DNA of 64,000 nucleotides from Phlebiopsis flavidoalba (taxonomy: Eukaryota > Basidiomycota > Agaricomycetes > Polyporales > Phanerochaetaceae), in assembly GCA_035772785.1 (NCBI GenBank), contig JAOCPU010000072.1:1-64000 (forward strand). The letters are read 5' to 3'. This document shows, in pieces, positions 1,329 through 33,539 of this stretch (position 1 is its first letter; each line of letters opens with the position of its first letter). Below the pieces are notes generated by a model that worked only from the letters and a program-made list of their open reading frames with translations, was not told where the DNA came from and did not search any database. The position numbers and the translations under genes are program-made.

Positions 1329-1395
1329 TGCTACAGCGGCATCACCGGCACCTCACCCAAAGCAGTAAGATGCTGATAACAGCCAGATAACAAGT

Positions 1396-3993: not shown

Positions 3994-3999
3994 TTGCCC

Positions 4000-9115: not shown

Positions 9116-9119
9116 ATGT

Positions 9120-9430
9120 CCAACTCATGTTATGAGTCGATGTGAGAAATTTGCGACTCGGTATGATGTTTTTTCTCTATTCTCTCCGTGACGATTACGA
9201 TTGAGAATTGGAGTTGGGAACTCATAAGCGTTGATTCTCACGGCGCCGAGGTAACCGTTCTGGACCCGGAGGGGGAAAATATCCTCAGGCTCCATGTCAT
9301 CACGGCGCACTATAAAGTGCCCAAGCTGAAATGTTTTTCGGTCACGTCTCGCTGGAGAAATGCGGACTCCGGAGAAGACCAACACACGTCTACTTGTCGT
9401 CTAATTGGTCATCGCCATCCGTCAAGAAAT
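9120..9430 (+). repeat. Module X of the composite repeat (copy 1)
   Basis: About 300 bp that recurs in reverse orientation at 39460-39545, 42010-42060 and 42640-42720. The shared block includes CTCCATGTCATC and a run ending AAGTGCCCAAGCTGA. Both strands are open over part of it (minus: LGHFIVRRDDM; plus: LHVITAHYKVPKL), so which strand codes, if either, is undecided. In every copy X is followed, in this orientation, by an HTT unit. Confidence 0.7.
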
Positions 9431-9972
9431 TGTGTCGCAAGTTCAATCCACCCGCTGTGGAGGTAATCCCTACCTTAAGCGTAAAAATTTATTTTTCTTC
9501 TTACTTTCTTTCATTATCTCGTTCAGTCGCTCTCATCACCCCGCCATCCATTTCCTTCAGTGACCACGTCCTCAATAATACCGACGCTCATGACCAGACC
9601 GACCGATACCTTTCCGACCAGGCCGCGGATGCTTTTCAATCAGCATCAACGACGTCATTGATGCGCACCACCCCGCCGTCGGCATCGCGCCGTCCGGGGT
9701 CGGATCGCGCACGTAAATAGGGCGCATCGTTTCCGCCTGTCGCGCCGAGTCACTACCGCCGAAGACGCACGTCAACAGCGCATCAAAGCCGAGGGATCCG
9801 CTTCCTTTTCCCATTCATTCTTACGCAACATTTCCTGTTTTGTACCACTTCCCGTCACTCCGACGACACTCCCTGTCACGCTCCGCCCGATTCGAGCGCG
9901 CCTTCGATGATTTTCTATTCAGATGTGTACGATAACCCCCGACCGAGAGAACGGTGGCGGGAGGTCCCAACG

Positions 9973-9980
9973 TATATAAG
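9973..9980 (+). promoter_or_regulatory. TATA-like box
   Basis: TATATAAG lies in about 800 bp (9450-10270) that separates X from the intact HTT units in this locus and is absent from the other loci. A pyrimidine-rich stretch follows and then GTGAGT at 10164, so it may drive a short spliced transcript. Confidence 0.35.
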
Positions 9981-10269
9981 ACGCGCCCGCGTCGTCTCAA
10001 AGTACGTCCCCCCCCCCTTCATTCGGCACTCCCGCACGTTTACGTTTACACGCGTCCCTCGATATCGTTTCACTCGTTTCTCCCCTCGCATTCGGAACGT
10101 TCTCTCTCGCGTAGTGTTGGCGCTCGGTCCAGCACTCGAGAGTACTGTATACCTCGCGCGTTAGGTGAGTTTTCAGGTTGGAAGTTCTCGATTCACACGC
10201 TCTGTAGATACATGCGGCCATACACTACTTCTTCTCCTCACTGCCCCACCGTACCATTTAGCGACCTCA

Positions 10270-11970: not shown

Positions 11971-13160
11971 ATGGCGTCGAGAGAGGACTTGTCGGGAAAG
12001 TTTATCAAGGTGACGGTGCCAGAGAAGCATGTGTTGCTCGTTGAGCTTGCGCGCGGTGCGTTTTTGTGTTCGGTATGGGTCGACGGGTGCTCATTGTTTG
12101 TAGGGCGCCGGTGAATTCGTTCACGACGGAGTATGTGCTGTGGCTTGTGGGGGGAGAGTCTGGAGTTGACGATGAGATAGGTTCTGGGAGGACTTTGGAC
12201 GCGTCTTTGACGCGATTTCGCGCGACACGACCGTCCCGCGCCGTCGTCCTTGCGTCTGCTATTCCCAAGATCTTCTCCGCCGGCATAGACTGTGAGCACC
12301 TCAGCGACTTCCCTCCTTCCACTGCTAATCTCAATCGTGTCTTGTATGCGCAGTCACAGGTCTCGATAGCCTGAACCAACCCGAGAAAGACCCCGCGCGC
12401 AAAGCTCTCAACATTCGCCACGACACCAAACGCTTCCAAGACGCCATCGCAGCGACCGACCGAGCGCTGCCCATACCCTGTCATCGCAGCCGTTCACGGC
12501 GTCGCATACGGGCTCGCCATCGACATCATCACCGCCTGCGACGTGCGCCTCTGCGCCGAGAACTCGCGCTTCTCCATCAAAGTGAGCTCTTTCCCCCCTC
12601 ACACGCATATACTCGCCGCTGAGCGCGCCACGGCAGGAAGTCGACGTCGGGCTCGCGGCGGACATTGGCACGCTCGCACGCCTGCCCAAGACGACGGACA
12701 ACGCGAGCCTCGTGAACGAGCTCGCGTACACCGCGCGCGACTTTGGGCCCGGCGAGGCGGAGCGGCTCGGCCTCGTCTCGCGCGTCGTGCCCGGCGGCCG
12801 CGACGAGGTCGTGCGCGCGGCGCTCGAGGTTGCGGGTATCATTGCAAAGAAGTCGCCAATTGCGGTGACGACGAGCAAGAAGGTGTTGCAGCATGCGCGG
12901 GACCATACGTGAGTCTGTCCAGTGTGCTGTTGGGCGGTTGGTGCTGAAGCGGGTTCGGAACAGGGTGCAAGAGAACATGGACTATATGTGTTGAATTGGA
13001 ATCAGGTCATGTTGCAGAGTCAGGTATGGTGCTGCTCAGATGGGTTGTTTATGCTTCGCTCATTCCGCTGCAGGATCTCATGGCGGCTCTTACGGGGGCA
13101 AAGACAAAGAAGACACCCGAGTTCCGCGACCTTGCAAAGCCGGCGGGCGCGAAGCTCTAG
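11971..13160 (+). pseudogene. Peroxisomal delta3,5-delta2,4-dienoyl-CoA isomerase (crotonase family)
   Basis: Enzymes of this family shift double bonds of unsaturated fatty acyl-CoA during beta-oxidation. The start MASREDLSGKF lies at 11971. Ordered exons give APVNSFTTEY, then FWEDFGRVFDAISR, AVVLASAIPKIFSAGID, the oxyanion-hole region AAVHGVAYGLAIDI, and KEVDVGLAADIGTLARLPK, which carries the acidic residues characteristic of the dienoyl-CoA isomerase branch. The C-terminus AKL is a PTS1-type peroxisomal signal. Introns of 45-65 nt separate the exons. The frame does not join cleanly: the first two junctions are out of phase, there is an extra base near 12455-12465, and a TGA interrupts the exon near 12992. 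It is therefore a recent pseudogene or carries sequencing indels. Its 3' end is duplicated at 26780-26988. Confidence 0.85.
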
Positions 13161-13737
13161 GCCACTTGTTCGAATGATCTGCTTTCATGTGTTTGTTTTG
13201 CATAGGATGTACGTAATATCTTGAGTTCCACTACTAGGTCATTCTGTGGGCACCACGCGTTCGGAGAGCGCAAATGAACGTGGACACGGCTCTGTGGGAG
13301 CACGGCGGCCGCGTGCTGGCGACGGACATTGAGGCGCGATATAACCACGATCTGTGAACAGATCATGAGGCACAGCAACGAGCTATAATTGAGCAGGCTA
13401 GTCGAGGAGCTGTAGCGGTTCGCAGGACGAGATGAAGACTTGTGCTTGGCAGGGGATATAAGCTACGTGCGCCTCGGGTGTCTAGGGGGATTTCAGAACA
13501 ACGATGTAGTCGCCGCAGTCGTCCAGGGCTGACTGTGGGCTGCATTTCAGCGCTCTGAGCTGAGCTGGGGACTGCGTGTTGAGGGAAGTGTGGTGGCCCG
13601 CATACAGCGAGCTGTTGAGTGAACGTGGAGGGAGTCCGAGTCTGAGAGCCAGTAGTTTCAGTCGGCGCGTCCCAATCAAGCCTTCACTCTCTCCCGCAAC
13701 GACGATCACGACTGCGACGACCCCTCCCCCGACGACG

Positions 13738-14940
13738 ATGTCGAGCAGCAACAAGGCGTCCAAGCAGCCATCCTCGCCCTCTTCATCGCCCCATGGCTCG
13801 AAATTGCCCAAGTTTCTGCAGAAACAGAGGGACCGCTCGCGCTCGGTGGTCGAGACGTCCGGCAGCCTAGCGAGCGCGGCCAGCTCGTCGTCGTCCATCT
13901 CTGAATCGCCCAAGACGGCCAGTACAACGAAGAGCTCAATCATGCGCAAGGCGAGCAAGAAAACGGCGCAGGGGTCGCCGCGCGAGGGCGGGGACAGGCG
14001 GCAAGATACCTGGACGCCTGATAGCGCACACGGTGAGCAGCCCGGCGGGTCTGAGCTGCCACCACCACGCCCCGAGGCGGGCGACGAGCCCCCTGTGATT
14101 GTCGAGCCTGTGAACATTCCACGACCACGCACACGCGCAGACCGCCCGCTCTCTGACAACTTCTCGGCTGTGCCTTCGTCCTACTACCCCTCCTCGTCCT
14201 CCAACACGCGCATCGCCGACCTCCCCAGCCGCCTCTCGGGCTGGTTCTCGCACACGTTCAGCACGTCCTCGACCGACCTCTCGCTGCCGCAGCTCCTGCA
14301 GCAGCAGCACCTGACCGCGGGCTCGCCAAAGGGGAAAGGCTCTGCGCTCCTGACGGCGGCCAAGCACGGCAAAGGCCACCTCGACAAGGCGATGCGCTAC
14401 CTCCTCGACAGCGACGCGGTGCCGGACAAGTGCGCGGACTCGATCTGGCTGCTCGGCGTCGAGCACCCGGGCTACGAGCCGGGCGCGGCGCCGCCGCCGA
14501 GCGTCGACCGCCGCAGCTCGGTCGACTCGCGGCGCTCGCCCGCCTCGTTGCGCTCCTCTGCCTCCTCCTCGCCCTCGACCACCGCAGCCGAGCCCGCCGC
14601 GCTCGCGCAATCGCAGTCGCAGGCGGGCAGCGCCAAGGACCCGGGGCGGCACTGGCCGCCCGTCTTTTACGCAGACTACACGTCGCGCGTGTGGCTCACG
14701 TACCGCTCGCAGTTTGTGCCGATCCGCGACATCACACTCGACGAACTTGGCGCGGCGCCCGACGGCGGCGGCGGCGGCGGGACCGGAGCCGTGCAGCCCA
14801 AGAAGTGGAACTGGCCCCTCGGCGGCGAAAAGTGCTGGTCGAGCGACGCGGGGGTGGGGCTGCATGCTTCGCACGGGGCAGTCGCTGCTCGCGAATGCGC
14901 TCGTGCATGTGCATCTGGGCCGAGGTGCGTGTGGGTCCTC
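13738..14940 (+). pseudogene. ATG4: ATG4 cysteine protease, N-terminal third only
   Basis: ATG4 cleaves Atg8 so that it can be lipidated in autophagy. This copy begins MSSSNKASKQPSSP (chosen over an upstream in-frame ATG at 13576 because the second copy starts at the same place) and runs as one clean frame of about 370 codons. It has a Ser/Pro-rich disordered head, then DSDAVPDKCADSIWLLG, WPPVFYADYTSRVWLTYRSQ and KKWNWPLGGEKCW. Just before the catalytic cysteine one extra G (five instead of four near 14850) shifts the frame; the other frame then reads GWGCMLRTGQSLLANALVH, with the active-site Cys. Similarity to the second copy ends within the first intron at about 14945, exactly where intron-rich locus I begins. 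The Asp-His half of the catalytic triad is absent. Confidence 0.9.
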
Positions 14941-15199
14941 TTTTTTTTATGACGGTGCTGACGGGCGCCTAATGGAACGCGGTGGCGGGTGCGGCCTAGG
15001 GGAAGGTGTTTTTGTGGCGAGAGAAAAAACGAACCTTAGGGAAAATCGGGTGGACACAGCGGGGGTGGTACACAGCGGGGGTGGTGGTGTATACGGTCAG
15101 ACGGCCGTGCTGCAGTCACGGAGGCGAGGCGGAGGTGTGCAGCACAGTGCTGGTGCCCTCGCCGTGTCCGCTCTCGCTCTCCCTCGAGTCTCTCTCTTT

Positions 15200-18100
15200 G
15201 TGCTCACTTTACTGTTTCTAGCTAGTATCAAATATATATTTATGCCCGTCTAGTTTTCGCTCCCGCGCCGAGCTCCCGCGCGCACCCATACAAGTCCAGC
15301 TGTGCCTCTCGCTACAAGACACCGGGCTGCCGTCTGTTTGGAGGTTCACTATTGAGCCTTCTAACTTGGTTTTTAGCTCTAATAGATTTCGTTCAATGGA
15401 GCACTTACCTGCCGTCACCAACTCCTCATCCGCCGTGCCGTCTGTCGAGTGCCCGAGATTCTGCGCGCGCACACCAAAGTAAGCCATTCCTTCATTCTTT
15501 GCTTCGATTTTTAGTACTCACCTCTTATTAGTTTGTTTGCACTCCTTGAAGCGAAAGCGCACCAGCGCGAATGCCGCGGCCCGCATGCGTGCGCCGTGCA
15601 GAGTCTGGTAATGGTCAATAGGAAACAGGTAAGTATGGCCTTCTACAGAGATAAGACGCGGCACTAACCTTAGATAAGCCTCGTTTGAACGATTACTCGC
15701 GCGCGGTGTTGACGGCCGGTCCGTCCTACAAGTTCTCGGCTCGTTCAAGTCCGCGCTGGGAGCCTCGGCGCGCGGGAGGGTTAGTAGGTAACACTCTAAA
15801 CAAGCGAGGTAAGCATTGCCGTCACTCTTGAATAGAAAAGAGTACTCACTTTAGTGTTAATCTTCCTAGTTCATGGCCCTTTCTATCCGCTGCGACCGTG
15901 TACCTTCGTCGCCGAGACGGCGCCGCCGTCGCCTTCGACAGCCCTCGACCTCACGCCGCGACACGTCCCCCTCGTCCGTTTGCCACGCCGACGCATCTGC
16001 GTCGTCCCTAACGACCTCTGGGACCATCTCCCACCGCACGTAGCCCTCAGCGAGCCCTCGCTCGCCGGAACGTGATCTGTCGTCTCGCGACAGAATAGAC
16101 GCCCACCCCACGATCGACACTGGAGTCTTCGTTAGCGGACCCAGGCCTCTCGTCTTTGGACTAGTCTCTTATATACGAATGGGGAGGCGGCGTAGAAGAA
16201 TTGGGACAGAGGGGGCCAAAGGTGAGTCTTCTGTACTTGGTTCTTTGCTTGCCTACTGAAGGCGTGAGTATAGAGACCTAAACGCGTTCGGGCACAATGC
16301 ACATACCTAGGAAAACGAACCTCGGGGGCCCTAGACCCCGCTTCAATGACGCAGAGATGTGCGCCTACAGACCCCCGCTCGCCGGACGGCGATATAGGGT
16401 CTCGAGCCCAAATCCGCCGCTCCGCCGTCCCTTCTCCGTCCGCAAGGCTCGCAGCTCCCAAGTCTCTCTCCACGCAACGTCAAAGTACCGGCCTAGCGGC
16501 CGGTACAGCTCCCATGCCGACGCACCCCACTCTGCGCTCTCGGACTCTCGTTCTGCGCGCCCGCTCTCACCCCTCACCACCGCCCGACCCCACCGTCCCT
16601 CCACTTCATGACTCTAGGTGCTGCTCCCAAACACCTATCTCGTAAGCCTGCAAGCATGCGGCACGTCCACGCGCGAACCCGCTGTCGCGGGAACGCGATA
16701 TGTCGTCTCGCAGCCAAATAGACGCCCGACCTTCGATCGGTGCGGATGCGGCGGACATGCGCAAGAACGTTACGCAACGTGATTTACTGCGAGGGGGCGG
16801 TATGAAGAACACGCGCGAGAGAGGCGGAAGTGGGCGGGATCGTGTGTGTGCGCGTGTGGAGCGTGTCTTCGCGCGCGGGCGGGGTTGGGATGTAAACACC
16901 TACAGAGGTGCGTGCGCACGTCCGTTTGGTGTTGTTTTTGCTGACGTTTGATCTTCTAGGCTGTATACAACTTTTGAGGACCGCGCCGGGGCGTTTGGGC
17001 GAGGTCGAAATTTGAATTTAATCCATGGGTCGAATTTCGGAAGCACGGTTTTGGGCATCGCGGACGTCCTGGAAATGTCGCGATACAGTCGGCGATGTGC
17101 CGTGTGAAAGAACGAGAGGCGGGGCGTGATTTTGAGCTGCCTGGAGTCGAAACGGCGGGCGCGGCGAGACGGCGCGCGAAAGGGCCGACGCCGCGTGGGA
17201 CGCTTGGAGAAGGTGAGTTACATGTCGGAATTGGCTCCTTAGACAGCACACTTACATTCTGATTCCTTGCAGAAAACACTAGGATGACGCGCAAGGCGCG
17301 ACACACTGGTGTCGTTTGAAAGCCGAGACGCGGCGCGTGCGCGCGGCGCAAATTCAAGACGATCGCTGGAAGAGCATCAATATTTCGTCAGTACATGACA
17401 CAAACAGCCCAATCAGAGCACGTACGCACCTCAGAAAAGCGACAGACACACGCCGCTACGCTGCGCGCACCAGCGCGCACCAGCGCACACACACGCCGTG
17501 CGGCACTGCAAGGCCGGTCTGCGCGCGGCCACGCTGCAGTCTACAAGCAAGCCACATGTAAGTATTACATTCACTCGCACATATGCATTGCGAAGCTCAC
17601 CTTGATCATGTAGGTACTAGCACGAGAAACCTGCGAGCTGCGCGCTCGCAGTCGCGAGTTGAAGACGCGCACCACATCCTGGCAGCGCGGCGACGTGGAA
17701 AGGGCTACCAAACAATGCGTCAGGAAATACTAGCGGAGAGGCGAAACAGGACGCAGACGTACCGTGAGGATCGCGGACCGAAATCGTGAGAGCGAGACCC
17801 GATCGGAGGCTCGTGAGCGCGTGGGGGAAGTTGTCATTCTGCGCATGGGAGGTGAGTGCATGGGAGGTGAGCTGCATTCTCCAAGCAGTAGGATCACATT
17901 TACTCACTCTTTTGCACAGAGCTGTGCGTTTGCCGTTGCAGACAGTTCTCCTTGATACCGCGGAGGCCGCGCTCGACGCGCGCGAGACCGACCTGCGCTG
18001 TCGTCCACGTCAGAATGCGCGATGCGCCTCCGCGCAACGCAGGCACGGAGCGTGCGAAGCACACTACTAAGCAGCGGCTTGCCTGCACACCGCCGTGCCG

Positions 18101-18250
18101 TCGTCTAGGCCGTCCGCCGCTCGACGCGTCAAACACGCCCGGTACGCCCGTCGCGTGTGTGACACTAGAAACCTTCGGAAGCGCATCAGTTTACCCTGTC
18201 ATCTCTGTATCAATGCCGCGCTAGTACATACCTAGTGTTGTAGTAAGGAT
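15200..18250 (+). other. Intron-rich locus I, first half (array A)
   Basis: A run of short exons separated by intron-like modules. Clear candidates are 15479-15531, 15629-15673, 15809-15869, 16918-16959, 17213-17272, 17558-17613 and 17852-17919. Three exon segments share one reading frame: PERDLSSRDRIDAHPTID (about 16065-16120), PDGDIGSRAQIRRSA (about 16382) and SRERDMSSRSQIDARPSI (about 16684). Relatives with the same frame occur in array C, 30 kb away. The repeated open peptide suggests coding exons copied in tandem. I cannot assemble a full-length protein by eye, and some exons contain stops. No known family is recognised. Confidence 0.6.
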
Positions 18251-20135
18251 CCTTGAACTGCCGTGGTTGGCTTGCGCGTACGCGCATTCGTGTGTGTCAC
18301 GTCGCGTCTGCGTTCACGGACAAATCTCTGACTTCATTTTTGTAGGTCCGGGAGCTCGTTCTTGGGAGGCCGCTGTCGATAGATGGCTGGTGCATTTCTT
18401 TACAGCGGCATGGACGGCGGCATGAGTGTGTTGAGTGTAGTGTAAGTGTGACGGCAACGAGACGAGAGATTGACACTGACGGTAGGATGACTATTATGTA
18501 AGTTCCATTGTAGCTACGAAGATATTATCTGACATACCTTAGAGTGTAGATGGCAGTGACGGTGTGGTGAGCAGGAGGGTACAAGTGGCCGGGGCGAGAA
18601 CAAGTAGCACTGGTAGCGTACGAGATGAGCGTGCCCAAGTGAGGATAGTGCAGGGCAACGCATGGGGCTCAGCGTGACCCTCGGGCCTTGCCCGCGGGGA
18701 TGGTCCGGTTGAGCAACGGTCAGCTTCAACCGGCTGCACAGTGCTCCGTAACTGCAACCCTGAAAGTGCGACCCTGTCGGATTAGCTGCCACGTCGGCGC
18801 GACAGCGTTCTTTCGAGTGAATCTTTTTTGCGTCGCGTCAAATATGCCGGGTTCTTGGGTGCTTCCCTGTTGTTTCATGTGTCAGATTTGATGTCAGTGT
18901 GCAATTTCCGGCACTGTCCACCCGCCTCTGCTTGCTTTAGTGCCTTGAAGAGGCCTCATTTCTCAATTTATTTTATTTAAGCCATCTGGGTTTCTAGTGT
19001 CTCTAAGTCTGAGATCTGAGTGTGATCATTTATCTCAAGTCAATCCATTCATTCTACCATCTCAGTGTGTTCTCAATCACTCCAAAATCCGGCTTCTTAA
19101 TAATATGCACCCTAGATGGTGCCGCAAAATTGGCTGATATCAAGGAATATGCATGGGAAAAGGATGATGTCCTATTCCCATGGATATTCCTCAATACCAG
19201 AACTCTTTCAAACTCATTATTCATTGTACTCTAGAGCTACATGACATACATAACACTAAGGCAAGTATATAACTATAGACTAGGAAATGAGGATAGAGAT
19301 GAGCATGAGGATATGCCGGAGATGGGATCCAGGGTGCAAAATGCGAGGCGAGTGATGGAGCTCGATGGAGATTGATGAGACGTTGCGCCGCGCAAAGCAA
19401 GCGGGACGGTGGGAAAATGCACACGGCCGGATGGCGTCTCAGCATTAGCGGTCGGCTCCGGTCACCAAACGTGGAAACGGAGATGTGCGCTGGCAGGCAC
19501 CAGTCGGGGGTATTGGCACGGCAGACGGTGTATGTTGGTAATCAACTCTTTGGTAGTAGCTAGGTGTGGATGGGTTTCTTCCCAATAGCGAGATTCTATG
19601 AATGAGGTGCAAATTCGTCAGGTAGTTCAACAAGGTCTGATATTCGCAATCAGTGGTCAAAAAGCTGCATGAGTGTGAAGATAAAATACAAAAAAGTGAA
19701 TCAATGTGTATTGTAGCATAGAATTGGAATAATGATGATGAGTATCGGTATTCATAATGGTAACGGAGTGAGAGAGATTTGCCGCGCAACCGAAATCTAC
19801 CGAAATCTAGGATTTACTGTAAAAGGGAGATCTTGATTATCTTGCTTTTGATCGCGCCAGATTGCGCCACAAAGCCTTTGGCAAACGCCCTCGCCTTGAC
19901 CTCCGCCTCCACCTGTACCCATCGCGCACCGTCGTAGCATCACGCAAGCACTTGACGTATGTACACAGTCTATCTACAGATTTCATGCTGACAGAGAAAT
20001 GTCTAATCTTCAATTATCTAGAAATAGTTCAGACTCCAGAGTGGGCGGACAGACTTAATCCGAGCCAGTGCCGCTTGGGCACAATGCCTCCTCGCCACAC
20101 ACGGCAACCGAGTGCGGGCGTACGGAGATGATACA
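18251..20135. other. Spacer with AT-rich, LTR-like block
   Basis: No supported gene. The block from about 18869 (TGTTTCATGTG) to 19240 is AT-rich and has a TATTTTATTTAAG signal, which would suit a copia-type solo LTR, but I found no target duplication or second copy. At 19810-19880 a segment resembles 51800-51870, upstream of the second locus. Confidence 0.3.
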
Positions 20136-20147
20136 TAAGCGAGGTGA

Positions 20148-20500
20148 GTGAGGGAATCATACAACAGCCCCAACGGAACACTTACGAAAGCGACCATTTC
20201 CGCTGCAATCGCGGAATTCGCGTCATTGGCTCTAGCTACGTCCATCGCACACATCCGTCGCGTAAACGACCCACCTTCGGTCGAGGGGTGGCTAGTGCCC
20301 GCGAAGGCGCTTGCGTACGGGTACCTCAAGCAGATGCGATCAAAACACCCCGTTTCGTTGTACTTACGGAATCGCGAACTGAGGCCGAGTACACCTCGCT
20401 CTCAGGCCTCGGTTCCGTTGCTTGCAACGAGCGGCGGTGTCATGGCCCGGGTGGCGCGTGACGTGGCAGCACGGCACAAATCGAGGGCGACGCGATGAGA
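20148..20500 (+). other. Conserved coding-like exon upstream of array B
   Basis: Open frame containing ATSIAHIRRVNDPPSVEGW and LRNRELRPSTPRSQASVPLL. The matching DNA at 52190-52440 upstream of array D keeps ELRPSTPRPQSSVPLLAT. Conservation across two copies 32 kb apart supports a shared, once-functional sequence. It overlaps the promoter region of the array, so it may belong to an upstream gene. No family is recognised. Confidence 0.4.
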
Positions 20501-20560
20501 AGTTCCGGAATGGCGGCATATCGAGCAACGCGCAGGTCTCGGGGTATAAAGGAGGAGGAG
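20330..20560 (+). promoter_or_regulatory. Promoter region of array B with TATA box
   Basis: TATAAA at 20545-20550 is followed by GGAGGAGGAGATGGCTTGA and a CT-rich leader. The same order (TATAAAA at 52538-52544, the same GA-rich downstream block, a CT-rich leader) precedes array D, and about 250 bp upstream is homologous. This suggests the two arrays are copies of one transcription unit read from left to right. Confidence 0.55.
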
Positions 20561-20752
20561 GAGATGGCTTGACATCCTCCATCCTATCCTCCCCTCCTCC
20601 TCCAGTCCTCCACCCTTCTACTCCTCCATCGACGCAGCCACTTCCTCGCACCGTGTCACATCACCTCCACCACCGCCAATCCGTCCAAACGTGTCCGCCT
20701 CAATCACACTGGCCTCTTTCATGCCAGATGTGTTATCTTGCCGGCTAATCAA

Positions 20753-22412
20753 GTAAGTCAGCTCCCACCTCCCGTTCATTTCATTACTGACCTTTGAATA
20801 TCATTATAGAATGCCCATAGACACTCTTTCAATGAACATGAAGCGGAATGTAACGCACCCCGTGTACCCCTTTCACGAACGGGGTCTTCGAGTCCCGGGT
20901 AAGTACCGTGACGCTATCCGTTCAACCCTTTACTTACTCGTGCTGATCCAAAATCAGACAATCCGTTCAACCGATTGCTTACCACGTCAGCGATCGCGAA
21001 GTACGGGCCCGTTCAATCATTTGAACGACCGGTCATAGGAATTTGAACGGTAAGTAATTCCCGTTCATATTGTTTCGATTCTGCCATTGACTAATCTATA
21101 TAGTTTGTTGTGTTGCCGTTCCAATGCGTCCAAGCGCATTGTAGGGTTGCCGGCCAAAACGGCTGGCTGCGTGCCCTGAACGCGACACATATGTCGTGGC
21201 ATTCACCCCCATACACGGCGCGGTGGATTCATACAACATGTAAGTGCCCAATATCATCTTCGCGTCAGGTTCGCAATTTTGACTGATTCTTACAGATTCA
21301 TTACTATGAGTTACCTTCAATGCTCCGAAGCGCATTGTAGGGTTGCCGGCAAGACGGCTAACCGTCCTCTTTCTGGAACGAAACAGAACCAGGTAAGCAT
21401 GTTGAATTCGCTGTAACGTACAAAATACTGACCTCGACTACTTCTAGGTTCCGCTCCCTCGCCGTGCCCCTTGACGACCGCTGACGTGTCATGCATGGCA
21501 CGCCGTTTCGCGTCCCCTGTAAGTAATCGGCGCGTTGTTACTATCGCGTTATCATCATACTGACCTGTATTGCCGTAGTATATATGCACACATGCCGTCG
21601 AGCCTTGAAGCCGTACTACCACGGATGGCGCTGCGTCAACGGTGAGTCATATACCAATCACCCAGCCTTGAAATGGGCTAACTTCTTGTATAGCCCATTG
21701 ATTTGCCGTTTCAATGCTTCGAAGCGCATTGTAGGGTTGCCGGCATGAACGGCTGGCAGCGCGCTCGAAAATCACGCGACCCCCCGAGACTCTCGATGAA
21801 GTCTCCAACACCGCGCATAGGTACGTAAATGTCAATTAACGTTGTACTACAATCTAACCCGTCTCTTATGTTTGTATAGAAAGTTGAGACTTCATCATTA
21901 CAATGCGTAGAGAAAGCGCATTGTAGGGTTGCCGGCGTGAACGGCTGGCAGCTCGCTCGACAATTCCGCGACCCCCCGAGGCTCTCGCGCCACACGCAGG
22001 TTCGTGAACGTCGATTAATGTCGTACTACAATCTAACCATTCTATTATGTTTGTACAGATTGAGATCTTGTCGTCACAGTGCGCTTCAAAGCGCATTGTA
22101 GGGTTGCCGGCAAGACGGCAAACCTTTCGTTCTAGATAACCCAGCAGGGTCTCTACTGAACAAAACCAGACGCTACACGCCGGCCAGCGTTGCTACGCGT
22201 CATTCGATGCGCAACTCGGTGAGTCCGTCACAGCACTAGAGTCTTACTGCATCCTAACCATTGCTTATAGGCATTAAGTCGCCGCCACCGTCTATTGCTT
22301 CGACCTGGCTGTTGTCACGCCCAAGCCGTTCTGGCTTGTTTATCAAAGGTCAGTGCATTTTATTAATGCGACAGTCTTTTTCTCTTTACTAAATACTGTG
22401 CGACCGCCATAG
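20753..22412 (+). other. Intron-rich locus I, second half (array B)
   Basis: Eleven consecutive intron-like modules of 52-64 nt: 20753-20809, 20899-20957, 21050-21103, 21240-21295, 21393-21447, 21519-21578, 21642-21693, 21821-21879, 22000-22058, 22219-22270 and 22349-22412. Most have GTAAGT or GTGAGT, CTGAC or CTAAC, and a TAG or CAG end. Five exons carry the 19-mer AAGCGCATTGTAGGGTTGC or its variant in one frame, reading for example CVQAHCRVAGQNGW, CSEAHCRVAGKTAN and CFEAHCRVAGMNGW; four of the five stay open across the exon. Introns 21821-21879 and 22000-22058 are also similar to each other, so the duplicated unit was exon plus intron. Function unknown. Confidence 0.65.
21132..22107 (+). 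repeat. Five copies of a 19-bp exon core
   Basis: AAGCGCATTGTAGGGTTGC at 21132-21150, 21328-21346, 21722-21740, 21914-21932 and 22089-22107. The base before the core varies, while the core and the following CGGC are almost invariant. Each copy lies 10-45 bp after an intron acceptor. Three further copies are at 53452-53470, 53579-53597 and 53716-53734. Confidence 0.9.
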
Positions 22413-22829
22413 ATTCTTCCTTGCTCGTCGCCGTCATTGCGCCGCCGTCGTCGCTGCGCACCCAACAGGCTCGCCGTGGCAACCTACGGCGTCCCATGTG
22501 ATACCGTTGCCCCGCCGTCTCGTCTTCCCGCGTGACGAATGGGCCTGGCACGGCGTCTCGTCGTCTTGCTTGACGAGCGCACCCGCCGACACCCGCCGTC
22601 TCGCCGTCTCGTCTCCCCGCTCAACGAGCACGCCCGCCCATGTCTCGCATGTCGGAGACATAACGAGACTCTGATTAAAAGAAACATCTAGCGCGTGTGA
22701 TGCGCGCGCCGTAAAATTTAATTGTATTCTGTCTTTCAAGTCTATGTACAAACTCTTATCTGTAGTAGCATTCATTAGTACATGTGTAGACAGCCAGGAG
22801 AACGGAACTACTAACCAAGTAAATAAATC

Positions 22830-22853
22830 ACCAGTGCATCTTAATGCACTGGT
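22830..22853. other. Perfect 10-bp hairpin
   Basis: ACCAGTGCAT, loop CTTA, ATGCACTGGT. It is preceded by AACCAAGTAAATAAAT, which resembles the start of the palindromic intron at 23167. Confidence 0.75.
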
Positions 22854-23166
22854 CCCCCCGTCGCCTTGCCCACAGCGCGACGCACCCCACGTCCCGCCCC
22901 TGTCCACTCGCCGTGGGCCGCCGCGTCGGTCTCGGCCCTCGCGGATGTCGCTCGTGACGCCGACGCCGCCTCGCACACGGCACGGCGCACCGCGCCGTTC
23001 GTTCGTGCCCCGTCGCTGTGGGCCAGCGCATCCTCGCATCCGGCATCTGTTGTCGGTGTCGCCGACGCCGTCATGGTCTCGCTGCCGATTAACGAGTCCA
23101 CGCGGCGGGTTCGATTGGACTTGATAGCCGTCCTGGTCGGCGCACGTCATTAGACTGGATGAACAA

Positions 23167-23222
23167 CCAAGTAAGTAAAACAGTCGAATGAATTATTGGT
23201 GTTTTACTCACTTGGGTTAACA
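23167..23222 (+). other. Intron-like module with 16-bp inverted arms
   Basis: The left arm CCAAGTAAGTAAAACA (23167-23182) contains the donor, and the right arm TGTTTTACTCACTTGG (23200-23215) contains the branch-like CTCAC. The arms match at 15 of 16 positions, and AACAG follows as acceptor. The minus strand would show GTGAGT and CTTAC in the same places. Confidence 0.65.
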
Positions 23223-24657
23223 GGTTACACAGCGCACATATGCGCCATGCACCCTCGGCGCGACGCGCAGGCCGCACCATGTCTTCGTGAGTGGCCACCG
23301 CCTCGCGTCGTTGGACTGTGCTAAACTCCCCGCACAGCGCGGTGCACGGCAGCCTGGTCGCGCTACGTCGGCCGCACGTATATCTAGGCGTGTGTCAGCT
23401 TCGTCTGGCGGCCACGTCACTGAACGCGACTCACCGCGATGGTCACATGGTGCGTCTCGTCCATCTCTCTCTTTGTCGTTTATTGAAGTGGCGTATCGTC
23501 TTTGTTACAGGCCAATTCCTCCGGCGCACGGCCGCAGTCTGCGGCCCCTCGCCGTCGCACCCTTCGTGCTCGTCGGCTGTCCTGGTGCATTGGTAAGTGG
23601 CCTGTCTTACTTCTTCACGGCACCGTGTATTGTCTTGATGCGCCGTTGTACTGACCGCGATCCTCGAACGTCCCGCGCAGCGCGCAGACGGATCGCCTTG
23701 ACTCTCCGCCCGCCGCCTTCTCGTTAATCGGCGCCCCTCGGTGTACGCATGACGGCACGTCCGTCATGCCCTTTCGTCGCCGTGGTACAGTGGTGAGTGT
23801 GCGCCGTACTGGCTCCTAAATGTTTGCTGACGCCGTTTCAATGTGCTCGCCGACTGGTCGTGCAGTGCGGCTCACGAACGTGGCGTTCGACTCGTGCTGA
23901 CGAGCCGGTGCGTCACGTCTCGTTGTTACATGGTACGTCTCGTTCGTTTCAATTTAATCACTCGCCCGCTGACTTGCGTCCCACCACGCGACGTTCTCGT
24001 GGTGCATCAACGGCGCAACGCGCCGTTGTGTATAATTTCGTAGCCCCCGTCCAACCCGTTTCGATATTGCCTTTATCCAAGGCATCGATGGACGACGCAC
24101 GTCAGTGCCTGTCCGTACTCGCACGGGGTCGGCCGTCGCGTTTCGGTGAGTCCGGCGCGCCGTCGACGACGACGCGCAGAGCGTCGGCGGGCACGTTCTG
24201 CTGCTCGCACGGGCCCTCCAAAAACGCACGGGCCCGACCGTCGCGTTCTCGATGGGCCCCCGCGCGCCGTCGTCGCCCTCGTGATTACAGTCGGGGTGTG
24301 GACGCGCGGCTGCGGCGCGCGTGCGGTCGTTGGGTCCTGGGCACAGTTGCGCGTGCACCATACATGTCGGCGTGCGCTTTGTCGGTGCGTCCCCGTATCT
24401 CGTTCGCCGCCGTTTGCGTGCCTGACTTGCTCGTCGACGACTTCTAGGGCGAGCTCCAGCGCGCGGCCGAATCTGCGTTTGTTGGTGAGTCCAACCGGCT
24501 CGCCACGCAGAGAACGGCGGCTCACGTACCTTTGGTGCCCCGCCCGCATCTCCTCCACCTCCCTGGCGAGCTTTCGTGAGACGACGAGAGCGTGCAGCGT
24601 TCACGCTCTCTGTCGTCTTGGTTTCGTCTCGCGCTGCGACCGCGGGCTGCCCGGTGA

Positions 24658-24691
24658 GTCTCGTCTCGTCTCGTCTCGTCTCGTCTCGTCT
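24658..24691 (+). repeat. (TCGTC)n microsatellite
   Basis: About six to seven copies of TCGTC immediately after a GTGAGT donor-like site. Confidence 0.9.
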
Positions 24692-25150
24692 TGACTGTAA
24701 ATGACACGGCATAGACAGTCTTCGCGGAGGCGCGCGGAGTTGAAGACTCTGCGCCCCACTGGTGCCGACTGCGCGCGCGCGTGCGCCGTTCGCGCTCGTC
24801 AGGTACGTTCCCCTTTGTTTTCTTGTGTGTCTTGCTGAACGTCGTGGTCGCGGCGGCCCCAGAGCGGCACGTTGAAGACATCTCGCGATCGCCCGCGCTG
24901 TCTGTATCCACCGGTGAGCCCGAGCGGAGTGCGAATGCGGATGCGGACTCACCTGATGGAGGTCCCGCGCCCTCGGTGCGTACTTTGCTCCCCCTCTCTT
25001 CTGTGTGGCGGACGGTCCGGCGGCGCGACAGCGCGGTTCTCGTTTACGAGACTGTGCGCTCGTATGCTAATTAAGAGGTCAGTGCGGTTCGTTACCACTG
25101 GAAACAATACTTACCTGACCCCCGAGCAGTCATTTAGTGATCTGTACACG

Positions 25151-26640
25151 CATTAGGTCTTGGTACGAGTTTCCGGGCGTTTCTTCGCGCGCGTAGCCTG
25201 TAGATCACAACCGACGAGTATTCTAGAGAAAAGCGGTCGATACATACACTTCTAGACCAGTACACCTGGTTTCCATCATGTACGCGTTGTTTTCCTGCAG
25301 CTTCACTAGAAAATAGGCGAAAATAAAACGATAAATACGAATATAATAAGCATGATCCATAATATCCGTACGAAAATCCGGCCGTAAGGCCGGAAAGCCG
25401 CAGGTAATCCGTACAAATTTTGGGCCGCCGTTCCGTATATAATTTTGACGGATTTCGGTCATCAGCTTGGGATCAGGGATCTCCCCCCATTGTGACAGGG
25501 GTCCTCGTGATGTTGATGGTTAGTGCTTGGGATCGAAGAAGGCGGCCGTTCGACGCCCGTACCCCTCGCTGTCGAGTCTTGGAGCCCGCCCGTCGCTCGT
25601 GCGGGGTGTCGAGCCGTCGCTGGAGACCGTGCGCGGTGGTCGCGCCGTTTGTGTGCAGGACCGCGCCGAAGGCCGGTAGAAGGTGGTTGAGCTGCGCGAG
25701 GGATGTGAGAGCCCGCGTGAACAGGCGGACTCTGTCGTCACGATGCGCTGCGCGCGCGCGGTCGAAGCGACGGCGCACCGCGCCGACGCTGTGCGCTACA
25801 GCGTGCTCGTGCGCGCATTCGCTCTTGAGTTGGCCGTGTACGCCGAGGACGAGGGCAGGGCGCAGCGTGCGCCCGTTGTCGTGCATTGCGGGGGTCGGTC
25901 GTGGTCCGGTGGTGGTGGTCGAGAGCCAAGTCCGTGAGCGCGTAGACGCCCAAGCGCGGAACGGACTTGGGCGCGCGGGCGGCGGCGACCTCGGCGACGC
26001 CATGGCACGTCTCTGCCAGTCACTTCCACCACGTCCTCGTCGTCACCGCCGTCCTCGCCGTCGTCGTCGCTGCGTCCCGTCGCCGCCGCCGCCATGTTTT
26101 GTGCTCCGCCCGCGATCAAGCCCGATACAGGCCGCTTCAAGAGATGTCCGTGGGCGTGGTCGAGGGATTCGACCGTGCGAGGGTGCTCAAGACACTGCGA
26201 CCTCGGACCAAAGCGGGTCGTTGTGACACGTAAGAGGCGAGATGTAATCTCGCATTTAATTCGAGCCGTGTATAGCGTAACCGCGTGGTACACGGGTACT
26301 GTACGTTGGTAGTGTACCACACCAATATGATTGATTTTCACCATTGCGCGCTGCTGCTGAGAGTACCCTGAACGCGACCAGTGGAGTAAAAACACCACGA
26401 CGTTGGAATGACCAGGCCATTATCGCGAGACGAGAAATGGTATTTTTTTAACTGTAGTGCAAGTAGTTTACTGGACTATACTACCAGTGTACTGTATATG
26501 ATTAATGTTGAGTCCTGATATGTTTGAATACAGTCAGAGTCTTTTATTATTCTCTTTTCCTTGTTGTCCAGCTGTGTTTATGAGGGCGAGACTATCATAG
26601 ATTAATTCAACTATTATAATTACACATTGCCCGTGCTACT
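25151..26640. other. Spacer right of locus I
   Basis: 25200-25440 is AT-rich and holds a perfect hairpin CCGGCC-GTAA-GGCCGG (25378-25393). 25500-26230 is GC-rich and open on both strands; neither translation is recognised, so no gene is called. 26240-26640 is AT-rich with nothing visible. Confidence 0.4.
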
Positions 26641-26779
26641 ACTACACCCCGCCGTCGAAAGCCCTACCGACGCGGCACTCTCAATGGCACGCGGGAGGTC
26701 CCCCCCCCCCCCCCCCGAGCTCGCGCTGATTTTCCCCCTCACAGAAATGCTCGCCGCCAATGGAGAACGCGGGAGGTCG

Positions 26780-26988
26780 AGCGTCGAGCTCGTCTTGCGC
26801 GTCGTGCGCGCGGTGCTCGAGGTCGCGGGCGGAATTGCGCGCAAGTCGCGGGTGATGGTCGCAGAGTCAGGTGTGGTGGGATGAGTATATGCTGCAGGAC
26901 GTCGTGGCGGCTCTGACGGACACAAAGACCAAAGAAGACCGCGTCCGAGTTCCGCGACCTTGCAAAGCCGGCGGGCGCGAAGCTCTAG
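26780..26988 (+). pseudogene. 3' end of dienoyl-CoA isomerase (duplicate)
   Basis: Matches the last part of the gene at 11971-13160, from the segment coding VVRAALEVAG to the stop, including EFRDLAKPAGAKL and the shared 3' flank. It is preceded by a C-run of 17 (26700-26716). Many bases are missing relative to the first copy (the KKSPIAVTTSKKVLQ region is collapsed), so it cannot encode enzyme. It marks the left edge of the right-hand copy of the duplicated isomerase/ATG4 segment. Confidence 0.8.
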
Positions 26989-27587
26989 ACCATTTGTTCG
27001 AGAAATCTGCTGTCAGTATTTTGTTTTGTATAGGATGTACGTAATCTGGCATTCCATTCCGTGGGTGACACGCGTTCGGAGAGCGCAAACGGTCTCTGTG
27101 GGCGTGCTGGTGACGGACATTGGAGCGCGATAGGGCCACGATCTGGGAGCAGATCATGAGACCCGGCGGCGAGCTATCATTGAGCAGGCTAGTCGAGGGG
27201 CTGCAGCGGTTCGCAGGACGAGATGAAAGACGTAAAACCGTGTGCAGCAGGGGATATAAGCTCGGGTGTCTAGAGGGGATTTCAGAACAATGATGTACCC
27301 GGCCGCAGTCGTCAGGGCTGGACACTGGGCTGCATTTCAGCCTCTGAGCTGAATACTGCGTCTGAGGGAAGTGTGGTGCCCGCATACAGAGATCCTGCGA
27401 GTTGAGCGTGGAGGGGAGTCCCTGAGTCTGAGAGCCGAGTAGTTTTCTGATTCAGAGCCAGTCCTCTGTTTCAGTCGCGCCGAACTCGTCCAATCAGGCC
27501 TCCCCACTTCTCTCCCGCTACTCCCCCTCCCTCCAACGACGCATCACGACTGCAAGACGGAACACTACCCGCCCTCCCCCGACGACG

Positions 27588-30500
27588 ATGTCGAGCAGCA
27601 ACAAGGCCTCCAAGCACTCGCCCTCGCCGTCCTCACCCTCTTCATCGCCCCATGGACTCGAAATTGCCCAAGTTCCTGCAGAAACAGAGGGACCGCTCGC
27701 GCTCGGTGGTCGTCGAGACGTCCGGCAGCCTAGCGAGCGCGGCCAGCTCGTCGTCGTCCATCTCTGAATCGCCCAAGACAGCCAGTACAACGAAGAGCTC
27801 AAATCATGCGCAAGGCGAGCAAGAAAACGGCGCAGGGTCGCCGCGCGAGGGCGGGACCAGCGAGGCAAGATACCTGGACGCCTATAGCTACACACGGTGA
27901 GCCATTACTCCGGCTCGGGTCCTGAGCTGCCACCACCACGCCCCGAGGTCGAGGGGGCGACGAGCCCCCTGTGATTGTCGAGCCTGTGAACATTCCACGA
28001 CCACGCACACGCGCAGACCGCCCCGCTCTCTGACAACTTCTCGGGCTGTGGCCTTCGTCCTACTACCCCTCCTACTCCTCCTCCCAACACGGCCGCACTC
28101 GCCGACCTCCCCAGACCCGCCTCTCGGGCTGTTCTCGCACACGTTCAGCACGTCCTCGACCGACCTCTCGCTGCAGCAGCTCCTGCAGCAGCAGCACCTG
28201 ACCGCGGGCTCGCCAAAGGGGAAAGGCTCTGCGCTCCTGACGCGCGGCCAAGCCACGGCAAAGGCCACCTCGATCCAAGGCGATGCGCTAACCCTCCTCG
28301 ACAGCGACGCGGTGCCGGACAAGTGCGCGGACTCGATCTGGCTGCTCGGCAACGTCGAGCTACCCGGGCTACGGAGCCGGTCTCGCGGCGCCGCCGCCGA
28401 GCGTCCTCGACACCACGCCCAGCTCCGGTCGACTCGCGGCGCTCGCAACCGCCTCGCTGCGCTCCTCTGCGTCCTCCCCTCGCCCTCGATCGACCGCCGC
28501 GGAGCCCGCCGCGCTCTGCGCAGTCGCAGGCGGGGCAGCGCCAAGGACCCGGGGCGGCAACTGGCCGCCCGTGTTTCTACGCGGACTATACGCGTCGCGC
28601 GTGTGGCTCACGTACCGCTCGCAGTTTGTGCCGATAATCCGCGATATCACGGCTCGACGATGCTCGGCGCGGCGCGCCCGACGGCGGCGGCTGGGGCCGT
28701 GCAGCCCAAGAAGTGGAACTGGCCGCTCGGTGGCGAAAAGTGCTGGTCGAAGCGACGCAGGTGGGGCTGCATGCTCCGCACGGGGCAGTCGCTGCTCGCG
28801 AATGCGCTCTGCGTGCATGTGCATCTGGGTCGAGGTGCGTGTGCGGTGGTCTCCTCATGTACTATCGCGTTTTTTTTCTGACGGCCTATGCAGAATTGGC
28901 GAAAACCTCCACACCCCGTCTATACAGCCGATTACGCGACGTATGTGCAGATTATTACGTGGTTGTTCCTCGACGATCCGTAGCGCCGCTATTGTCCGTT
29001 TAGTGTACATCGTGATGGCTTTGGTGGGGAAGCAGCTGGGTGTAAAGGTTTGTGGCATGGTTTGGTCTCTGGCCAAGGCAGCACAGGCTGCTGGGGCATA
29101 TCAAGTGCGTATATACTACCCTTTTATGCGATCCTGCGCTTGACCTTGTTCAGGAACCCTGGTGCATGCATTCCCTGAAGCTGTGTCCTTGGGGTGCATG
29201 TCGCAGCCGATGGCGGAACGATCTACGAATACTGAAAGTATTTGCCGCGTCGCACACTGGCATTGGTTCCCCACGGAGACATACGCGCAAGGTATGGGGC
29301 GACCGTGCTGTGTTGGATTCTCATCGGTCATAAGACGGCTGGGTCTCGATGGCATGCGAGGTCAGCGAAGATCCCCATTTACTACGACACCCTGAAGGTA
29401 TGTTCTCGATCTATGCGATCTCAACTTTGATCTTACCCGCGTTCAATAGACTTTGTACACTTGGCCTCAATCTGTCGGCATTGCCGGTGTGCCGTCCCTC
29501 TTCATCCTACTGACTTTGTTGTGGCTCTCAGGCTGACAACCTCTTCTACCTCGACCCTCATCATGCTCGTCCTACCATTCCCCTCCGTCCCCCAAATGCA
29601 GAACCCACAGAACCCGTCACCCCCATATCCTATGAACTCACGCCACAACTCTAACCTCCCCAGAACCACAATCTCCCCACCGATCGCGAACGATCCTCAC
29701 CACACGCTCTCCCATCCGACACACCCGCACCCAGACCTCGCCCGTATCCGTGCGCTCGGCTCGTCCTTCTCGCGCATCGGGCGTCGCCCTCAACCCGCTA
29801 CCAGCTCAGCTTTCCCAGTCCTGCCACGACGACCGCATGGGGTCCTACGTGACCTCGTACGTCGCCACACTATTACTGGTGTGACTACCCACTCGAGCAC
29901 GTGCTCGCACACCCCCGCTTGGCGCCTCCGCCGGCGTCCGTGCCCGACGACTCGGAGTATGGACTCGCGCGAGCTCGTGCCCCGAGGTCGAGGAGCTCGA
30001 TGCGCTGCAGAGGCATTTTGTCACGGCGTATTCAGCGGCAGAGCTCAAAGACGTTCCATTGTGATGTGTTAGGGAAGATGACCTCTGTCGGTCCTCGCGA
30101 TCCGAGTATGCTCATGGGCTTTTTGTGCAAGGGATGAGGCGGGAGTGGATTGATCTCAAAGCGGCGCAATTAACGAAGTGAAAGTTGCACTGTCTCCAAA
30201 AATGCTGGTTGTACGTGTTGACACTTTGTGCATAGGCTCAATCAGAAGTCGCAGAAGGGGGGGCTACAGTCTTGCATCTCCAGGACGAGCCCCAAATTGG
30301 ACGACCGACTCTGATGTGGGTATGGAGAGCTCTCCGAGCCCGACTTTGACTTGCCCGACGAGGAAGACGAGTTCGCTGGACGCAGAGATCAGCTACGCTC
30401 GACATCCGCCTCACCAGTACACGAGACCTGCCGAGCACGCACTCCAAGTATGCCGAAGAGGGCGACACAGAGGACGACCCCGTGGACCCCATCACCCCAC

Positions 30501-31037
30501 GGCGCAGGCCGCACGATCTTCATGCACATCAGCGCGCCCGGCCGCATCGAGAAGCAGGCGAGCACAAGCACAACCGGCAGCTCCCAGGCCGACTCGCTCA
30601 GCTTCGACGACGAGGACGACGAGGAGTGGGCCGTGCCGGACTACACGCGTGGCCGCACGCGGAGCCGCGGCCGCCGAGCCCGCGCGACGCGGACGGCGCC
30701 GGAGCTGCTCGCCTCGCAGGCGACGATCGTGCGCGAGCCCGGTTGAGCCCGAGGATGCGGCGAGGGCCAGGGCCAGGGCAGCCCCGCGGCGGCACCACCG
30801 TAAGAAGGCGAAGAAGAAGAGCGCGAAGCAGCCGCCCGCGCCCCGAGCAGTATCCGTTTCCCTGCGAGCTACGGCGACGCGGAGGAGAGCAGGAACAGCC
30901 GCGTAGGGCCCGGGCAAGCGTGTCCCGCAGATGCGCACGCAGAAGCGCGGACCTGGCAGGAACACGAGCGGGCGGCACGCAGAGGTGTGGGGGCGTGCGC
31001 GTATTCCCTGCGGTACGATATCAAAGAGGATGTCTAG
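27588..31037 (+). pseudogene. ATG4: ATG4 cysteine protease, full-length extent, many indels
   Basis: Starts MSSSNKASKHSPSPSS, as the first copy does, and continues through the Ser-rich head and WPLGGEKCW to WGCMLRTGQSLLANAL, with the catalytic Cys near 28770. After an intron comes NWRKPPHPVYTADYATYV, then MALVGKQLGVK, HAFPEA and KVWG. ADNLFYLDPHHARPTIPL (about 29533-29590) supplies the catalytic Asp and His. SAAELK and DPSMLMGFLCK follow, then an acidic C-terminal region with a late FIMHISAPG-like motif. Order and content fit a complete basidiomycete ATG4, including its long acidic tail, but the frame changes about every 30-100 bp. A TAG interrupts after WLFLDDP near 28980. The end is uncertain; a stop near 31037 is my estimate. 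Compared with 13738-14940, most differences are single-base insertions. Confidence 0.85.
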
Positions 31038-31710
31038 CGCGACTTCTTCGAAAAAATGCCGTCGTCCGCCACTGTCGGACCTTTATTTCCAGGTTTTTTT
31101 CAGTTGTTCTTTCTGCTGCAAACACAGTCGTCGCGTTTCTTGCGACTGTGCGCCTAGCTTATGATTTGCTCTTTCTTTGACTGTATACTTTGCTTGCACA
31201 CTAGGACGGCCCTTGCGCCGGCCGATGTACTCTGGGCCCCCCAACACACCCGGAATAGTTGCTGTATTCCGCCCGGAGCAGTCGGTCTCGCGATCGTCCC
31301 CACCAGACCCCATACCCTCGGAGCACGTAGTCCCCCACACGCCACACTCCGCTCAATATATTACAAGACTGTTGTAGCATCACCAGGGCTTCCTTCTAAC
31401 GCCTTGTTTTTTTATCGCCTGTTCTGTGCTGGTTTTTCTCCGCCACTATCACAATGTGTACGTATACAAAATGGATGTATTTCCCAGGTTCGCGATACGA
31501 ATGATAGTGAAAGTGTGGTATGGCAAGTCGTGCATGTACGCAAGGCAGGAGCGATTCATGAAGACGAAAGTGTTCCGTGTAACGAGCGGAAGAAGAGGTC
31601 GGTAGAAAGCTGATAACGAAGCTCCAGTGTACTCGCTGCTGCCATTGTAGCGGAAATAAGTGCACATTACAGTGAAGAGAATAATAGCCATAAAGAGGAG
31701 CCACGCCGCA

Positions 31711-33283: not shown

Positions 33284-33539
33284 CGGCGACGCGAGCACAA
33301 ACGGGGAGAAAGAGATGATGGCGGTTGCAGAGCAGCGGATGGTCCACTGGTACGACCCCCGTGCTCTTCGGGGGAATGGATGTCCGTGGCAGGACCCGCG
33401 AGTGACCCCTTCTTTCTCATCGGACTGTTCTTCCCACACGACTTTATTAGAACTACTACTACTGCCATCTCTTGCACACTAACTCTGAAGTAAATCTTCC
33501 AAAGCTTTTCAACCGACGCCTACCCCTGCATGGTTAAGT

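Follow-up and report, generated by a model that had tools for sequence, protein, structure and literature searches.

The closest described systems are mostly non-coding RNAs. The centromeric and cenH non-coding RNAs (ncRNAs) of fission yeast are repeat-derived and hold several introns, in an organism with RNA interference (RNAi) genes, and cryptic introns in such repeat transcripts engage both the spliceosome and RNAi, giving rise to small interfering RNA (siRNA) (PMC11696164, PMC5322907). In Drosophila, Suppressor of Stellate and the hairpin-RNA loci Nmy and Tmy are non-coding; they are both related and complementary to the protein genes that they silence in trans via small RNAs (PMC12224907). 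In fungi, microRNA-like RNAs have been described (PMC9757828), as have long non-coding RNAs (lncRNAs), polymerase-II transcripts of which some act in trans (PMC12566771). Here we describe locus I, a tandem array of short exons and intron-like modules in the basidiomycete Phlebiopsis flavidoalba. It lies in the first 64 kb (the window) of contig C72 (136,280 bases) of assembly GCA_035772785.1 (36.3 Mb in total); positions given without a contig refer to the window, and other contigs are designated C1, C2 and so on. Locus I covers 14959–25976 on the plus strand, an extent taken from colinear pieces that match C9:384922-397646, and the window contains a second array, locus II (46000–57200, plus strand). 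We see roughly an even chance that locus I is a non-coding, many-intron RNA gene of a dispersed family, acting in trans as antisense to the messenger RNA (mRNA) of one cyclin, probably via RNAi.

The sequence translated as AHCRVAG in the original prediction, which had named it as a repeated exon motif, is present five times in locus I. As DNA it is a 20-nucleotide (nt) core, AAGCGCATTGTAGGGTTGCC, at 21132–21151, 21328–21347, 21722–21741, 21914–21933 and 22089–22108. Of 20 array copies (eight in the window, nine on C40 and one each on C9, C2 and C39, picked by their central 13-mer), 18 have the same 20 nt, and the other two differ at the last base. Mean pairwise identity within the core is 0.99; the four stretches compared on its flanks have 0.30, 0.36, 0.40 and 0.29, but these ungapped counts understate the similarity of the flanks, and with gaps allowed same-locus neighbours align at 79–93%, core included. 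When up to four edits were permitted, the exact 18-mer was recovered in 17 of the 18 plus-strand copies of loci I, II and C40, together with one chance match on the minus strand at 17720 and with degenerate cores on C9 (three), C40 (one), C96 (three), C29 (one) and C48 (one). Loci I, II and C40 keep the core, whereas from the other loci it seems to be disappearing. In seven of these 18 copies, the first YAG upstream lies 25 nt before the core match; in the others the distance is 17–34 nt where a YAG is found. Throughout the genome, the 18-mer has 23 matches at up to two mismatches, 21 of them exact, against two for the reversed pattern. Twenty of the exact matches are in array or array-like loci; the remaining one is antisense in a cyclin gene. 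The viral contigs searched contained no match to the core, and the prokaryote genomes gave four single matches, with about seven expected by chance (18-mer, 257 Gb). Readings of the core as tRNA-, telomere- or rRNA-like were considered and not adopted.

The antisense site is located at C2:1501051-1501075 (18-mer at C2:1501052), in the first coding exon of a gene of the PHO85-cyclin-5/pas1 type. Counted from the A of the ATG, it starts 64 nt downstream and spans 25 nt, covering codons 22–30, and the core, as in the copy at 21132, is the exact reverse complement of the codons for WQPYNAL. A search with the cyclin returned 34 homologues, the best from Phanerochaete carnosa (E 2.9e-41) with other Agaricomycetes near; the names given to them include PHO85 cyclin-5 (two homologues) and G1/S-specific cyclin pas1 (one). 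The Pas1 cyclin of Schizosaccharomyces pombe connects the cell cycle with mating. Ten homologues were aligned, six of which have their N-terminus at the site, and RWQPY is kept in five of the six; the cyclin has therefore had this site for long, and it is constrained by the protein. The 3-kb stretch around the gene has no scored introns on either strand. An 11-bp inverted repeat, GGACCTGGCGC/GCGCCAGGTCC, is situated directly before the complementary site (1469–1495 of the gene stretch, L051).

The core is antisense to the cyclin mRNA in loci I, II, C9, C40 and C2:1073496. The match to the gene extends over 20 nt in arrays of type I (locus I, C40, one C9 copy and C39); among those of type II, it is 24 and 25 nt long in two copies of locus II (53447–53470 and 53711–53735), 19 nt in the third (53579–53597) and 25 nt at C2:1073496. 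Two kinds of array context and the gene thus have just this stretch in common. Comparison of six arrays with the 3-kb gene stretch gave 24 antisense matches of at least 13 nt, 23 of them at the site, where shuffled sequences gave one to four; sense matches of this length numbered two, with zero to three in shuffles. The duplex of core and cyclin has a predicted energy of about -47 kcal/mol, and the perfect or near-perfect complementarity to a protein-coding mRNA that characterizes trans-acting siRNA and hairpin-RNA loci is present over 19–25 nt. Since the core is the exact antisense of the codons of one cyclin, RNAs from the arrays probably act in trans on that mRNA.

The same observations can be read in two other ways. 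The arrays may be spliced ncRNA genes in which the core is a site for an RNA- or DNA-binding protein, so that each molecule would serve as a sponge or scaffold with 3–10 sites, the cyclin gene having the site on its other strand. The near invariance of the core and its similar place in the exons, as judged by the YAG spacing, are consistent with this, and lncRNAs with multiple sites that hold proteins exist. However, a general binding site would be expected in many genes, and the 36.3 Mb contain one exact copy outside the arrays, in antisense; moreover, three type II copies match the gene over 24–25 nt, past the common core. We regard a protein site as fairly unlikely. Alternatively, complementarity being symmetric, the arrays could be the regulated side, with an RNA derived from the cyclin silencing or processing their transcripts. 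Here the numbers are unequal, with many array copies facing one gene whose site is protein-constrained, so that the arrays would be the side that had to adapt, and we consider this direction of control very improbable.

Another feature of locus I is its density of intron-like modules. The original prediction had counted at least 18 of them, 42–68 nt long, in 15200–25150, and our count agrees. Scanning with a strict pattern (a GTRAGY or GTRNGT donor, a CTNAY branch and a YAG acceptor within 40–80 nt) identified 21 modules on the plus strand of this region, or 19 distinct ones of 45–68 nt once two overlapping pairs were merged, whereas 50 first-order Markov sequences gave an expectation of 1.74 (standard deviation 1.4, maximum 6). 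On the minus strand 17 modules also score, many of which are plus modules read backwards, and some within 23.4–25.1 kb score better on the minus strand. A scored scan found 23 plus and 20 minus modules in locus I (15000–26000), against 5.5 expected per strand, and 39 plus and 22 minus in locus II (46000–57400), against 5.4. Elsewhere in the window the counts were near chance (6 and 10 against 5.3 in 1–10000; 10 and 12 against 9.0 in 26001–45000). Plus introns outnumber minus introns in loci I, II, C9, C40 and C2:1073496.

The modules are distributed over two units of locus I. In the first part, the module at 15479–15531 also reads as a minus intron (15521–15461), and that at 17558–17613 is a good minus intron too (17600–17541). 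In both C9 and C40, the module at 16908–16959 retains its GT donor, its branch TTGCTGACGT and its acceptor, and the module at 17213–17272 retains its donor. The second unit follows a conserved region at 19801–20450, within which 20305–20437 is 82% identical to 52299–52431 of locus II, and a TATA-type promoter block, GTATAAAGGAGGAGGAGGAGATGGCTTGA, at 20544–20572. Its modules at 20753–20809 (strict scan and paralogue comparison), 20899–20957 (signals kept in C40) and 21050–21103 precede the first core; those at 21240–21295, 21393–21447, 21519–21578, 21642–21693, 21821–21879 and 22219–22270 were all found by the strict scan. A further module at 23171–23223 is kept in C29, and three modules at 24473–25114 score on the minus strand (24525–24473, 24952–24902 and 25114–25067). 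Near the initial introns of the second unit, both loci repeat the words CCGTTCAA and TTGAACGG (20900–21070 and 52750–53060). Upstream of the TATA box, the block 20363–20437 is conserved at 52357–52431 and similar in C40; it has a putative fold CTGAGRCCGAG-TACAC-CTCG..CTCAG.

Conservation of the splice signals was assessed by aligning eight locus I introns with C9, C40, C79 or C29, in six blocks that gave 12 comparisons. The family copies agree at 138 of 168 donor, branch and acceptor positions (82%), compared with 292 of 499 (59%) for other intron positions and 1315 of 1949 (67%) for exon positions; the difference between splice signals and other intron positions is significant (Fisher p = 1.6e-8). 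The donor is lost in some copies, namely the GT of the 21050 module in C40 and the donor of the 23171 module in C79. The intron signals are present and kept between copies, which suggests that the sites are used for splicing. Many modules are symmetric: the pattern GTRAGY-N-RCTYAC occurs 47 times in five loci (a few overlapping ones being counted twice) against about 1.8 expected, and of these 35 have plus acceptors, 30 minus acceptors (about 25% expected by chance) and 22 both. Across the genome, a related strict symmetric pattern was found 181 times against 26 for its control, and its ACTRACC version 125 times against 29. Much of the excess is explained if plus introns and minus introns are mixed in the loci, and introns that can be read in both directions are therefore kept as a lead. 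The minus acceptors, partly explained in the same way, bear on whether double-stranded RNA might arise from two-strand transcription.

Locus I is, from these alignments, a member of a dispersed array family. It is colinear with C9:384922-397646 and C40:115327-123853, the latter matching its part 16679–22639, in pieces that are mostly 65–80% identical, and partly with C1 and C29. Locus II has the promoter block (52537–52565) and both repeated motifs in common with locus I; the TATA block, of the type GTATAAAGGAGGAGGAGGAGATGGCTT, is common to loci I, II and C40 and degenerate in C9. Further family loci are indicated by the core at C2:1073496, on C39 and on C96, and by the other repeated motif, motif A, alone on C20, C52, C4 and C93. 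The number of exons tagged with the core is five in locus I, three in locus II and ten on C40. Exon and intron have been copied together, as the original prediction had proposed: 21722–21936 and 21914–22111 of locus I are tandem duplicates at 79% identity, and 53444–53597 and 53571–53734 of locus II at 81% (window self-comparison).

Dispersed copies, duplicated flanking genes, repeats common to other contigs and degenerate cores would also fit decayed mobile elements that captured an antisense piece of the cyclin and have no present function. Neutral decay, however, would not leave 99% identity in the core and 82% in the splice signals when aligned exon positions retain 67% and the rest of the introns 59%, and none of ten open reading frames (ORFs) of the two loci has a transposon domain. 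We judge this explanation decidedly unlikely.

Several repeats accompany the arrays. On either side of locus I, at 13067–14933 and 26891–28843, an Atg4-type (Peptidase C54) gene is represented by its 5' part, in two direct copies (83%); three C54 matches were found genome-wide, all here on C72. Locus II is bracketed by direct copies (72–85%) of an aldehyde dehydrogenase region (43.0–45.1 kb and 59.5–61.3 kb), and the C40 array by an 84% direct repeat (C40:113001-113244 and C40:128012-128238). The C9 array has no bracketing repeat within 0.9 and 2.4 kb of flank, so that three of four arrays are bracketed. The block at 22318–23611 of locus I (plus strand) is common to repeats on C79, C48 and C29 (about 71–73%); a version of it is held by a dispersed repeat of about 2–3 kb, at C79:47437-49412, C48:43897-46936, C112:7811-10721 and C29:140690-142333, and the C48 copy of this repeat has about 260 bp inverted. 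Beside locus II, at 57431–58604, there are copies of a tandem unit spaced by about 255–460 bp.

The original prediction had taken the array for an intron-rich, tandemly duplicating repeat gene without a recognised family. That description stands, except that the gene appears to be non-coding. A single frame was said to be kept across the exons; AHCRVAG is indeed open in four of the five locus I exons, but the exon phases cannot join. In many copies the sequence ahead of a conserved CGGC is longer or shorter by 1 nt (loops of the AAGA-CGGC against the GAACGGC kind), so that the frame shifts while the DNA stays. The predicted excess of synonymous change among exon copies is absent, the core having no synonymous change at all. 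When the introns of the second unit are removed, the longest ORF in it has 69 amino acids, compared with a mean of 94 in shuffled sequences, and a search with the joined exon peptides found nothing at E <= 1 among 36 candidates. No Pfam family was detected in the ten ORFs of loci I and II, and this subset of ORFs contained no transposase, integrase or reverse transcriptase domain.

Two further comparisons are less informative. The lag-3 autocorrelation of paralogue alignments is -0.11 to 0.07, and the controls gave 0.07 (Atg4) and 0.12 and 0.03 (aldehyde dehydrogenase); the missing 3-base signal agrees with a non-coding sequence, but it is a weak test, since the control pairs are also low. In a six-frame comparison, the best frames are found now on one strand and now on the other, and stops interrupt every frame of some aligned segments (introns among them); the Atg4 control is likewise without one dominant frame. 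The assembly itself contributes to this. HSP70 matches are divided between frames, so that frameshifts are apparent in conserved genes and uncorrected long-read indels are suggested for the whole assembly, and the gaps between the two Atg4 and between the two aldehyde dehydrogenase copies are mostly not multiples of three. Both ORF length and 3-base periodicity thus have limited value as tests. A repeat gene for a fast-evolving protein, with its frames broken by assembly errors, could accordingly escape these two tests, which would have little power against it, and the frame open in four exons is in its favour; the weakness of the 3-base test has raised its standing a little. The invariant core, the incompatible phases, the 1-nt changes, the short spliced ORF and the lack of a protein homologue in our search all oppose it. 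The reading as tandem protein-coding exons is poorly supported, and we give it only a slim probability, below that of any other explanation considered here.

The other repeated motif, motif A, corresponds to the ERDxSSR-type exon sequence of the original prediction, which is confirmed at two places in locus I: 16063–16087 (GGAACGTGATCTGTCGTCTCG) and 16684–16710 (GGAACGCGATATGTCGTCTCG). A variant at 16369–16404 has 36 nt identical to C9 from 386414, and locus II has a copy at 47352–47378. A 16-mer of motif A with up to one mismatch has seven forward and no reverse matches in the genome (control one), and motif A was rejected as a second antisense guide. A 21-mer with up to three mismatches has six forward and five reverse matches against none for the control; the reverse matches are on C1, C20, C52, C4 and C93, and C1 aligns to locus I on the minus strand. 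A hairpin in motif A, seen by eye in some copies and broken in others, was not counted.

The window has no Rfam match at the gathering threshold in its 64 kb, such as a snoRNA host gene would give, and no tRNAs were found. Below threshold, 20500–22700 has 11 matches (best E 0.015), of which ten are microRNA models at the repetitive 20539–20616 and one is IRES_Bag1 at 22516–22651. A two-hairpin structure around the core is no more than suggestive: 79.7% of the cells pair, against 26–49% when the alignment is slid, yet shuffling the partners gives 78.2%. Three of 500 shuffles reach the observed pairing, and two-sided changes amount to six cells, a number reached by 35 of 500. RNAalifold did not recover the hairpin and found another, weak fold. 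This alignment contained 24 of 29 copies, with two long-loop C40 copies, one C9 copy, C39 and the gene copy C2b left out.

The machinery that siRNA loci require of their host, an Argonaute and an RNA-dependent RNA polymerase, is encoded in the genome. In a profile search covering PF02171 and PF05183, Piwi is above the cut-off on C1, C7, C8, C16 and C72, and RdRP on C1, C6, C19, C32 and C34. A Piwi-family (Argonaute) gene is present at C72:107594-108722, on the same contig as both arrays.

Under the antisense reading, transcription would begin from the conserved TATA-type block at 20544, splicing would take about ten short introns out of the RNA, and tandem duplication of exon plus intron would set the number of tagged exons per locus. 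Most likely, by the logic known from fission yeast, the intron-laden and perhaps two-strand transcripts would feed RNAi, yielding antisense small RNAs of about 20 nt that may repress the cyclin; a simpler alternative is that the long RNA would pair directly as antisense. Mating or fruiting as the natural context is speculation. In its fullest form, the arrays would be a trans-acting guide set in which exon duplication sets the dose of the 20-nt tag and splicing, perhaps on both strands, leads into RNAi to repress a single cyclin of the G1/S type; the set would serve as a switch for the cell cycle or for mating, or would be a selfish element that works through the cell cycle. This we put forward tentatively, as a possibility well short of an even chance.

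A number of points weigh against the antisense reading. Transcription, splicing in the cell, small RNAs and repression are all predicted from DNA sequence, and the core could instead bind a protein. Complementarity to a gene was observed for the core, and motif A has no gene target that we found. Cores are degenerate in C96, C29 and C48, in three of four C9 copies and in one of ten C40 copies. The status of C39 as an array rests on few intron signals (two plus and four minus, with 2.0 expected), the core hairpin is weakly supported, and indel errors in the assembly weaken every argument from ORFs.

Introner elements are known as many similar-sized introns close together. The introns of locus I are not near-identical copies of one another as those of introner elements would be; the self-comparison matches are exons or tandem duplicates of exon plus intron. 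Nothing like the system of array, core and cyclin appeared among the matches listed in the open-licence literature (for example the best 20 of 1,693 and the best 10 of 543). Fungal lncRNAs are described as typically intron-free in Neurospora and, in a fungus that infects tomato, as less rich in introns than coding genes (PMC12566771), whereas loci I and II have 23–39 scored intron modules in about 11 kb. The target complementarity of about 20 nt would fit the size class of fungal microRNA-like RNAs, but no microRNA-type precursor was recognised here, and the tag lies in repeated exons of a putative long spliced RNA. With the cenH ncRNAs (PMC11696164, PMC5322907), the predicted transcripts of locus I would share a repeat origin, several introns and a host with RNAi genes; cenH ncRNAs target the chromatin of their own repeat, while the present loci are scattered, hold a larger number of intron modules and bear a 20-nt tag complementary to one distant protein gene.

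If the antisense reading is correct, a dispersed family of spliced ncRNAs in a filamentous basidiomycete controls one cyclin for the fungus, or exploits the fungus through it, and exon duplication, introns and RNA silencing are joined in one testable system. It would also provide a clean case of sequence coevolution, with 20 nt bound to follow a protein-coding site, and would explain loci that are easily misread as fast-evolving repeat proteins. The arrays would then be a fungal counterpart of the fly Suppressor of Stellate and hairpin-RNA loci, with a different history: Suppressor of Stellate arose as copies of the target family and Nmy as inverted repeats (PMC12224907), whereas the arrays have only 20–25 nt in common with their putative target, in exons split by many introns.

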